Of a stretch of 56,015 nt of DNA, positions 24,441-28,739 are shown piece by piece. The stretch is from Nitrospirota bacterium (GTDB lineage: Bacteria; Nitrospirota; Thermodesulfovibrionia; Thermodesulfovibrionales; SM23-35), in contig JACAFF010000024.1 of the NCBI GenBank assembly GCA_013388455.1, positions 1-56,015 on the forward strand, written 5' to 3'. Position 1 is the first letter of the stretch. Each line of letters starts with the position of its first letter. The notes beneath the pieces are model-generated. The model saw nothing but the letters and a program-made list of their open reading frames with translations, was not told the origin of the DNA and did no database searches. Made by a program: the position numbers and the translations under genes.

Positions 24441-25496
24441 ATGCCAAAAAAAGTTGTAGAACTGCCTAAGCTTGCAGAACAAGCACGTGCTGCGGGTTGA
24501 GCTTCAAAAATAAGTCCGGGAGACTTAATAGATATTCTGGACGGTCTGCCTTCCGAAAAAGATCCAAATCTTTTAGTAGGAATGGATACAAGTGATGATG
24601 CGGGAATATATCGTCTTACTGATGAAATTGCGTTGATACAGACACTGGATTTTTTTACTCCTATTGTAAATAACCCTTATGATTTCGGAAGGATCGCTGC
24701 TGCCAATTCGTTAAGTGATGTCTATGCAATGGGAGGCAAACCACTGACTGCTATGAATATCGTATGTTTTCCCATAAAGGAAATGGACAAATCAATCCTT
24801 CGTTCTATTCTCGAAGGTGGTCTTGAGGTCATCCATAAAGCCGGTGCAATTCTGGTAGGTGGACACAGTGTAGAAGATCCGGAATTAAAATATGGACTTT
24901 CTGTAACTGGAGTTGTTCACCCGGAAAAATTTCTGACCAATGCAGGAGCTAAAGCCGGAGATCTTCTTGTTCTAACAAAGCCATTGGGGACAGGAGTTCT
25001 TGCAACCGCGTTAAAAGGTAAAATGCTTGAAAATACTACAACTTCTGTAATTACCGAGCTAATGGCTACCTTGAATAAGGATGCTTCTGAAGTTATGGTG
25101 GAGATCGGGGTTAATGCATGCACAGATATCACTGGCTTCGGGCTTTTGGGGCATGCCCTCGAAATGTCTGTAGCAAGTAAGGTATGTTTTAGAATATACG
25201 CTGATAAGGTGCCTATAATTCCAGAAGCTCAAACATTTGCAACTATGGGCATGGTTCCTGCAGGCAGTTTTTCTAACCAGAAATACTGTTCTAAACATCT
25301 GGAAATTAAACCTTCAATTGACCCAATCCTCTTAGACCTACTATCTGATGCACAAACATCAGGAGGATTATTAATATCTATTCCTTTAGAAAAAGCAGAC
25401 CTGCTCGTTCATAAATTAAAGGAAAAAGGCACACCTGCAGCCAATATAATAGGGGAAGTATTAACAAAACCTGCTGGAATGATTCAGGTTTGGTAA
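24441..25496 (+). CDS. selD: selenophosphate synthetase SelD containing selenocysteine (in-frame TGA)
   Basis: A 351-residue enzyme that makes selenophosphate from selenide and ATP for tRNA-Sec loading. Reading through TGA 24498-24500 gives ARAAGUASKISPGDL, aligning Sec with the catalytic Cys17 of E. coli SelD (GCGCK). The second Cys of that motif is Ser here. Downstream: LVGMDTSDDAGIY, RIAAANSLSDVYAMGG, VGGHSVEDPELKYGLSVTG, ACTDITGFGLLGHALEM, LSDAQTSGGLLISIP, full length. A SECIS-like hairpin follows the TGA by 11 nt. ATG 24441 has AATAGGA directly upstream. A conventional gene finder would start at 24582 and lose the catalytic loop. Confidence 0.95.
24512..24526 (+). promoter_or_regulatory. 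SECIS-like hairpin of selD
   Basis: AAGTC (24512-24516), loop CGGGA, GACTT (24522-24526): a perfect 5-bp stem beginning 11 nt after the TGA. That is the same distance as between UGA and the minimal upper stem-loop in E. coli fdhF. The loop is G-rich as in bacterial SECIS elements bound by SelB. The stem is short, so pairing alone is modest evidence; its position is what convinces. Confidence 0.65.
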
Positions 25497-25781: not shown

Positions 25782-27062
25782 TTATTTATGGTGTGTTGCT
25801 CTCATGGTTTGAGCAAGTTCCTTAATATTCCCGAGGTCTTTTACCATCATTGCCCAACCATACCAGTAGGCATAATCCGGATTGACATGGAAGAAAGCCT
25901 GGTATGTTCTCATTCGGTGCTTCATGTACATCTGAAATAAAACCTGATCTATGTATGAAAGTTTATTGGTATCACCTCCGCCTGTATGCATGAAATACAG
26001 AAAATCTGGATATGCAAAGGTATAGTTATCAGGCTTTTTTATAATTCCATCTTTATAAAGACCTGCAACTATCTCTATTGCTTCAGCAAGTAAGCGATCA
26101 GCTTTCTGCATCATAGAATCACCCATTTCAAGTTGTTGACGTGCATATTGGGCAGAATGGCAGTTAGTGCACCTTTTTATCATTTTGTTGCGTTCAGTCT
26201 GCCATGCTTCTTCTGTAAGCCTAACCATATCTACTGATTTTACTGCTTCGAGCCGCGCAGTGGGCTCGCCAGTTTCGGGGTTAATGACACCGAGGGCTTT
26301 TAGAATAGTAATTCTATCAGCTTTCCATTGAGGGTCTTCCGGTAAGGGCAGTCTTACCCCAAGAAATCCCCACGCTGTGCGGTTTTCATGGGTACCGCCT
26401 GGTAGATGACAGTACTGACAGGATGGAGCCTGAGCATTTTCTGGTAAATTGCCAGAGTTTTTCACAAACCAGCGTGTTCCGTGTTTGGCACTTTCCCACA
26501 TCTCCCATTGTGGATGATCATAACCCATGTGACATTGCTGACATGCTTTAGGATCTAAAGCCTCCTTTTTTGAAAAACTATGTCTGGTATGACACTCATC
26601 ACAAGAATTATTCTGATACCGATAACCTTTTGCTGATTGTTCCTTTTTCTGAGCTTCGGTTTTGATTCCCATATTATGGCAACCTCCGCAACCTCTTCCG
26701 CCCTCCATAAGCTCATCTGGTTCCACATGTGTAATGGGCAAAGCATTCATCGAAGTCCATCCAAAATTGTGCTTTCCTTTTGAAAATTCATCAAACTGTT
26801 TCTTATGACACCGAGCACAAAGATTTTCGTCTGGAAGTTCTGCGAGCTTGACATTCTGAGGTCCGGTATGTTTATTCCCATGGCATGTTGAACATGTTAC
26901 TTCCTTAGTGCTATGTTTGCTGGCTTCCCAGTCTTTCACAAGTCCTGGAGTTACACCCATATGACAGTTAACACAAAACTCTGCATGTGCCAATGAATTA
27001 TCCATTAACCCCACATATGAAAAGAGAAGGGAAAATGATATGATAATAATTAGTTTTTTCAT
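25782..27062 (-). CDS. octaheme c-type cytochrome, hydroxylamine oxidoreductase (HAO)-like
   Basis: A 426-residue periplasmic protein. The signal peptide is residues 1 to about 27 (ends SLAHA). Eight CxxCH haem sites start at Cys 30, 57, 82, 125, 154, 174, 215 and 298, an HAO-family layout, followed by a haem-free helical C-terminus with FFHVNPDYAYWYGWAMMV. HAO-like octahaem proteins oxidise hydroxylamine or hydrazine, or reduce nitrite or hydroxylamine, depending on whether a Tyr cross-links the catalytic haem; several Tyr are near the C-terminus, but an alignment is needed to decide. AGGGGG precedes the start. It follows the selenoperoxiredoxin and PerR genes on the same strand. Confidence 0.85.
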   Translation of the reverse strand: MKKLIIIISFSLLFSYVGLMDNSLAHAEFCVNCHMGVTPGLVKDWEASKHSTKEVTCSTCHGNKHTGPQNVKLAELPDENLCARCHKKQFDEFSKGKHNFGWTSMNALPITHVEPDELMEGGRGCGGCHNMGIKTEAQKKEQSAKGYRYQNNSCDECHTRHSFSKKEALDPKACQQCHMGYDHPQWEMWESAKHGTRWFVKNSGNLPENAQAPSCQYCHLPGGTHENRTAWGFLGVRLPLPEDPQWKADRITILKALGVINPETGEPTARLEAVKSVDMVRLTEEAWQTERNKMIKRCTNCHSAQYARQQLEMGDSMMQKADRLLAEAIEIVAGLYKDGIIKKPDNYTFAYPDFLYFMHTGGGDTNKLSYIDQVLFQMYMKHRMRTYQAFFHVNPDYAYWYGWAMMVKDLGNIKELAQTMRATHHK

Positions 27063-27353: not shown

Positions 27354-28076
27354 TTAGTCAAAAGCCATCTTTGTCTTCCAAACCTTCCATACATTTCCGA
27401 CAAGGTCTGGTCCTGGTTTTAAAGTTATCTTGCCGGGTTTCCATCCTGATGGCATTGCTTCTGTCCCTTTACTTTTCCGTACATGTTGGAACGCCTGTAT
27501 CTGCCTGATAGATTCACTCACATTCCTACCAACAGGTGGAGTCAGTATCTCGTATCCCTGAATTATTCCATCAGGGTCAATTATAAATCTTCCCCTTGTT
27601 TCAACACCTGCATTATCATCATATACACCGTAAACACTCCCAACTTTTCCTCCGGTGTCAGATAGCATAGGGAAGGGTATTCCGCCTTTTACCATTTTTG
27701 AAAGTTCGTGGTCATTCCACATCTTGTGAACAAATACACTGTCGATACTCATAGAGAATATCTCGACACCAAGTTTTTTAAACTCAGGGTATTTTTCAGC
27801 AACTGCTGAAAGTTCTGTTGCTCACACAAAGGTAAAATCACCCGGATAGAAACAAAGTAAAATCCATTTCCCAAAATATTCTGATAGTTGTAAATTGACG
27901 AATTTCCCCTGATGATAAGCTGGAGCAGTGAAATCCGGTGCTTTTCGCCCGATAAGAATCATGGTCTTTTCCTCCTTTTTCATAGGCTGTTCATTTTCCG
28001 GTATTTTTTCTTTTTCCTTTTCTCCAACAACGCCTCCGGTTGGTCGTGCACAACCGGGTTTAAATTCTTGCGGCAT
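27354..28076 (-). CDS. prxU: selenocysteine-containing peroxiredoxin (AhpC/Prx1 family) with in-frame TGA
   Basis: A 240-residue peroxiredoxin that reduces peroxides. Reading through TGA (27822-27824) gives CFYPGDFTFVUATELSAVAE, placing Sec exactly at the peroxidatic Cys of Prx1 proteins (FTFVCPTEL). The frame continues with IFSMSIDSVFVHKMW, GRFIIDPDGIIQGYE and ends GWKPG...WKTKMAFD. The usual resolving-Cys motif EVCPANW reads EAMPSGW, so it is a one-Sec enzyme needing an external reductant. The start at 28076 has AGGAGG and gives a 38-residue hydrophilic extension. An internal ATG 27962 also has GGAGG and would place Sec at residue 47, the usual position. A SECIS-like hairpin follows the TGA. 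Confidence 0.93.
27794..27811 (-). promoter_or_regulatory. SECIS-like hairpin of the peroxiredoxin gene
   Basis: On the minus strand TTTCAGC, loop AGTT, GCTGAAA form a perfect 7-bp stem starting 10 nt after the TGA. Position and size fit a bacterial SECIS element read by SelB. The loop has GU-type bases but not the full E. coli AGGUCU loop. It lies in codons for a segment (ELSAVAEK) that is itself conserved. Confidence 0.7.
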
Positions 28077-28130
28077 AAAAACCTCCTTTCATATTATTTT
28101 TTTAAAGTGTTATTAAGAATCAATAAAACA

Positions 28131-28288: not shown

Positions 28289-28705
28289 TTACCTTCTTAA
28301 GCATTTAGGGCAGAGACCTTCAAGAACTACTTTCTTGTTCACTACCTTAAATTGCTTTTTAATGTCTTTTGGAATCGTCAGATTGTCATATTCTTTATTA
28401 TGGAAATCTATAATAATATTACACTTTATACACCTGAAATGATGATGGGTCTCAATATCAGGATCATATCTCTTGGATTGTCCATACCCCTCAACAATAT
28501 TTGCGATACCAATTCTGGAAAATGTTAAAAGTGTCCTGTTCACCGTGTCAAATGATATATTTGGTATCTTTTTTCTTATCCTCTTATATATTGTATCTGC
28601 GGAAGGATGATTCTTTGCCTTAAGAAATTCCTGATAAATAGCAGTGCGCTGAGGGGTTATTTTCAGCCCATTTTCTCTGGATCTATTAAAAAATTCAACC
28701 ATCAT
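28289..28705 (-). CDS. perR: Fur-family peroxide-type regulator (PerR-like)
   Basis: A 138-residue Fur-family repressor (147 if started at ATG 28732). The winged helix is at ENGLKITPQRTAIYQEFL...NISFDTVNRTLLTF. The metal-sensing HHHFRCIKCNIIIDF and C-terminal CPKC give the two CxxC pairs of the structural zinc site. Its context next to a peroxiredoxin favours PerR over Fur. Start choice: the predicted promoter -10 ends at 28740, so transcription should begin near 28733, making ATG 28732 leaderless. The ATG at 28705 has TAAGG 8 nt upstream and is preferred. The gene is probably autoregulated. Confidence 0.85.
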   Translation of the reverse strand: MMVEFFNRSRENGLKITPQRTAIYQEFLKAKNHPSADTIYKRIRKKIPNISFDTVNRTLLTFSRIGIANIVEGYGQSKRYDPDIETHHHFRCIKCNIIIDFHNKEYDNLTIPKDIKKQFKVVNKKVVLEGLCPKCLRR

Positions 28706-28739
28706 TGCTTTTGCCTTAACTCCATTATTCATAATTTAA

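Follow-up and report, generated by a model that had tools for sequence, protein, structure and literature searches.

The window, a stretch of 56,015 nucleotides from a Nitrospirota bacterium, carries on its minus strand two open reading frames (28076-27825 and 27821-27354) that lie in the same register and are separated only by a TGA; an earlier, sequence-only reading had given these coordinates and this register exactly. Read through the TGA (27824-27822), which is the single interruption of the frame 28076-27354, they encode a 240-aa AhpC/Prx1-like protein with the active site PGDFTFV-U-ATEL. The TGA thus falls at the position of the peroxidatic cysteine of Prx1/AhpC, again as that reading had it. 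The NCBIfam PrxU profile (NF040737) matches the joined protein at 422 bits (E 5.7e-127, cut-off 270) and spans both sides of the TGA. Because the protein match continues on either side, the TGA is not a chance juxtaposition. By comparison, the AhpC model TIGR03137 gives the joined protein 191 bits, below its cut-off of 272. Among solved structures the protein comes closest to Prx1-type enzymes, with which it shares about 40-45% identity. The joined protein has the Prx1 fold, with a confident core and low confidence at the N-terminal arm and the C-terminus in the fold model, and the in-frame TGA sits at the U of PxxxTxxU (PGDFTFVU). The C-terminal resolving cysteine (EVCP) of a typical 2-Cys peroxiredoxin is missing, the region reading EAMPSGW as had been noted before. 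Judged from its sequence, the locus is prxU, encoding a predicted Prx1/AhpC-type peroxiredoxin with selenocysteine (Sec) as its peroxidatic residue, and it is an ordinary PrxU of an already known family. Sec peroxiredoxins are among the standard listed bacterial selenoproteins (PMC13188914, PMC9312934, PMC1794560). The features of the locus are collected in Table 1.

Table 1. Positions in the window of prxU, its sequence elements and the nearby selD gene
Feature	Position	Strand	Basis
Shine-Dalgarno AAGGAGGT for the first start (ATG at 28076, long form)	28081..28088	-	duplex energy -12.1 kcal/mol
prxU	27354..28076	-	240 codons, Sec = codon 85, TAA stop; NF040737 match
GCARPTGG motif, residues 8-15, invariant Cys9	28032..28055	-	G, C, R, P in 81/81
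Internal Shine-Dalgarno AAGGAGG within the coding sequence	27971..27977	-	conserved anti-Shine-Dalgarno pairing
Internal start ATG (M39), predicted 202-aa short form with Sec47	27960..27962	-	ATG 77, GTG 2, TTG 1 of 80
Cys75, ten residues N-terminal to Sec	27852..27854	-	Cys in 79/80
TGA, predicted Sec codon at the peroxidatic position (PGDFTFV-U-ATEL)	27822..27824	-	TGA in 80/80 relatives
Predicted bacterial SECIS hairpin, 7 bp, loop AGUU	27794..27811	-	comparative pairing evidence
EAMPSGW at the resolving-Cys site (EVCPxxW), no Cys	27441..27461	-	motif read in alignment
selD with its own in-frame TGA (24498-24500)	24441..25496	+	TIGR00476, 379 bits across the TGA

Selenocysteine is strongly supported as the reading of the TGA. 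All 80 relatives, taken from GTDB genomes of about ten phyla, have TGA at the same codon. Their lineages include Nitrospirota, Deltaproteobacteria lineages, KSB1, Acidobacteria, Chloroflexota, Spirochaetes, Calditrichaeota and Cloacimonadota, among others; those beyond Nitrospirota were drawn from one scan of genome contigs plus plasmids, and two scans of viral contigs for PrxU relatives returned none. The sequence-only reading had proposed that a genome lacking selA, selB and selC, or relatives with other stops at this codon, would speak against Sec. The source genome (2.1 Mb, 99.4% complete) contains selA (622 bits), selB (364 bits) and tRNA-Sec (selC, 73 bits), as well as selD (379 bits), and no relative has another stop in place of the TGA, although L020 has an additional TAA at codon 70. 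This damaged gene (L020/L112), whose genome belongs to the same family, also lacks C-terminal glycines that are otherwise invariant and is either a decaying copy or an assembly error; the same genome holds a divergent Cys peroxiredoxin (L131, G136:C54:19922-20548) with GDFTCVCPTE and FIPCGW. Such a copy would count in favour of prxU being a pseudogene or of its TGA being a sequencing error. However, the TGA is kept over about ten phyla, the hairpin downstream covaries and the Sec machinery is complete, leaving this explanation a negligible probability, and on conservation we discarded it. The selD gene about 2 kb from prxU has its TGA in the context AAG-U-ASKIS and encodes a selenoprotein SelD, of a known kind.

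The 18-nt hairpin begins after 10 nt from the TGA, and its stem (27811-27805 pairing with 27800-27794) lies precisely where a 7-bp hairpin had been described from the sequence alone; the loop is of the RGUY type. Among 76 distinct sequences, 98.7% of hairpin cells are paired, compared with 89.7% (maximum 91.5%) in 500 within-column synonymous shuffles. One pair alternates between GC, AT, CG and TA among the relatives, and compensatory stem changes include CTCGGC/GCCGAG, CTCTGC/GCAGAG, CTCCGC/GCGGAG and TCGTC/GGCGA, the last of which changes amino acids on both sides. Since the folding energy of the hairpin in the source window is by itself unremarkable (z -1.5), and a scan with Rfam for a SECIS family gave no match, it is the comparative data that identify the hairpin as a working bacterial SECIS.

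The protein does not begin where peroxiredoxins usually do. Residues 1-38 form an N-terminal extension of 38 aa ahead of the usual start, which the sequence-only reading had overlooked. Near its tip is the GCARPTGG motif, in which G8, C9, R11 and P12 are invariant in 81/81 and are each encoded by 2-6 different codons, and differences in arm length among relatives are of whole codons only. Given that these residues are invariant while their codons vary freely, we conclude that the arm is translated and under selection at the protein level. No GCARPTG motif was found outside prxU in the source genome and 20 related genomes. The structure model predicts the arm to be disordered (pLDDT 33-46) and does not place C9 near Sec.

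At the usual peroxiredoxin start there is a second, internal initiation site, likewise missed before. Across 80 genes the longest anti-Shine-Dalgarno match at this site averages 7.6 nt, as opposed to 4.62 +- 0.15 in 200 synonymous shuffles, and it is at least 6 nt long in 95% of genes versus 23% in the shuffles. The Glu codon within the site is GAG in 72/73, compared with 32% elsewhere. In three genes (L060, reading GTT AAA GGA GGT, L081 and L087) the signal occupies the same place and is built from other codons; what is conserved here is therefore the signal and not the protein, and the ribosome-binding site of the second start has been selected beyond what the protein needs. Mean duplex energy is -12.7 kcal/mol at the internal start and -11.4 kcal/mol at the first, against -4.5 kcal/mol at 1053 other in-frame ATG, GTG or TTG codons, and in 97.5% the first ATG is preceded by a strong ribosome-binding site. 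This layout recurs in a second PrxU subclade (UPTEL; L113-L115, L134), where the start lies 1-2 codons further upstream. We infer from these signals that prxU probably makes a 240-aa form bearing the Cys arm and a 202-aa armless form with Sec47, and it is likely that both forms accumulate.

Two other explanations of these signals were considered. The first is that just one start is functional, either the internal start almost exclusively, with the upstream stretch as a rarely translated leader, or the upstream start alone. Initiation at the internal start does produce a protein of just the length that is classical for peroxiredoxins (in Peptoclostridium acidaminophilum, 203 aa), but the arm is conserved as protein behind a first ATG with a strong ribosome-binding site, and conservation of the internal site exceeds what the protein requires. 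Because either start on its own leaves one of the two signals unexplained, we regard a single start as improbable. The second is that the internal Shine-Dalgarno acts as a ribosome pause ahead of the slow Sec codon and initiates nothing, which would fit the fact that anti-Shine-Dalgarno pairing is the feature conserved at the site. Nevertheless, a start codon stands at proper spacing in 80/80, the three that are not ATG are GTG, GTG and TTG, all of them start codons, and in the second subclade the ATG has moved together with the internal Shine-Dalgarno; a pause without initiation is accordingly very improbable. Two in-frame starts remain our preferred reading.

The PrxU of P. acidaminophilum (WP_084481301.1; NF040737; doi 10.1515/BC.2001.123) is 70% identical over its full length to the protein described here. 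The two share the position of the Sec codon, the absence of a resolving Cys, the GCARP arm and an internal Shine-Dalgarno with its start, and apart from the sequence of the arm linker nothing of substance differs between them. The annotated form in P. acidaminophilum has 240 aa, and a protein begun at the internal start would have exactly 203 aa. The protein reported from this organism by Sohling and colleagues in 2001 is said to have 203 residues, with Sec47. If correct, the dual start and arm would explain this gap in length between the annotation and the published protein, and would make prxU a selenoprotein gene in which initiation at two sites is under selection over about ten phyla. Pairs of N-terminal proteoforms arising from in-frame alternative starts have been described in Salmonella (PMC11005335). 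They resemble the prxU case in having one gene, two in-frame starts and two N-termini; by contrast, the prxU pair is deduced from conservation across many phyla, and what its long form gains is a conserved Cys motif. Within the literature covered, which was incomplete, we found no description of PrxU isoforms or of a dual start, nor of such a proteoform pair for a bacterial selenoprotein. The selenoprotein itself was to be expected; what was not expected is the arrangement of two starts together with a Cys arm.

The sequence-only reading had presented the lost resolving cysteine as a special trait of this protein. This does not hold, as the residue is absent from every PrxU read, in which the motif is EATPSGW or a near variant, including that of P. 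acidaminophilum (AEVAPSGW). AhpC (TIGR03137) has the same fold and PxxxTxxU/C active site, but differs from this PrxU in having Cys for Sec, a resolving Cys in EVCP and no arm, and in the same phylum AhpC proteins of the Cys type read EVCP or EACP where the motif is readable, and none of them has the arm. Sec, the arm and the missing resolving Cys together mark one clade of the tree (support 100/99). The resolving Cys was exchanged for the arm Cys once on the tree (n = 1), and because this is one evolutionary event the correlation is weak as to function. Besides Sec, nearly all relatives have two cysteines, that of the arm and C75. The proposal that catalysis rests on Sec alone overlooked the invariant C9 and the near-invariant C75.

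Since the C-terminal resolving Cys is absent, we tentatively propose that the arm Cys serves as a resolving or relay thiol for the oxidised Sec. In the scheme that we envisage, SelB and tRNA-Sec would insert Sec at the TGA by means of the hairpin just downstream. The first start would give the 240-aa form, with GCARPTGG near the tip of a flexible arm, and the second the 202-aa form of ordinary peroxiredoxin length. Sec would reduce peroxide and become Se-OH, the arm Cys of the same or a neighbouring ring subunit would form a selenenylsulfide with it, and a thioredoxin-type reductant would open this bond, with armless subunits sharing arms or being reduced directly. A reductant of this type is plausible from the gene content, two source-genome proteins matching the thioredoxin-reductase model at 294-308 bits, short of the cut-off of 343. 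The arm Cys, if it acts in this way, suggests a recycling route for an enzyme without a resolving Cys. Alternatively, both forms may exist with an arm that is redox-inactive and docks a partner or metal or targets the enzyme, Sec being reduced by thioredoxin (1-Cys) or pairing with Cys75, which is itself conserved and could be the alternative partner of Sec. A bare Cys site would not require a motif as long as GCARPTGG, and the restriction of this motif to prxU in the genomes scanned points the same way; on the other hand, the arm Cys is invariant and occurs in just those proteins that lack the resolving Cys. We would stop short of favouring this alternative but take it seriously. As an explanation of the locus as a whole, a Sec peroxiredoxin with two in-frame starts and the arm-Cys scheme is likely the best available. 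More speculative is the extension that prxU genes across phyla make armed and armless enzymes, that the arm Cys took over the resolving role when Sec replaced Cys, and that mixed rings have a tuned number of arms.

Next to prxU, at 25782-27062 on the minus strand, the octaheme c-type cytochrome that had been pointed out before does have eight CXXCH motifs; its resemblance to hydrazine dehydrogenase is distant (85 bits against a cut-off of 900). It belongs to none of the neighbour clusters common to at least three loci, and a link between it and prxU was dropped. Among 83 loci, the genes recurring near prxU encode Fur-family regulators (about 10), rubrerythrin-like proteins (about 9) and FAD-disulfide oxidoreductases (about 20), the latter two names being our own reading of the sequences. 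These recurrent neighbours fit a role in peroxide defence in anaerobes. In the window a Fur-family regulator lies upstream of prxU (28289-28732, minus strand), for which the best model is PerR at 104 bits, below the cut-off of 180.
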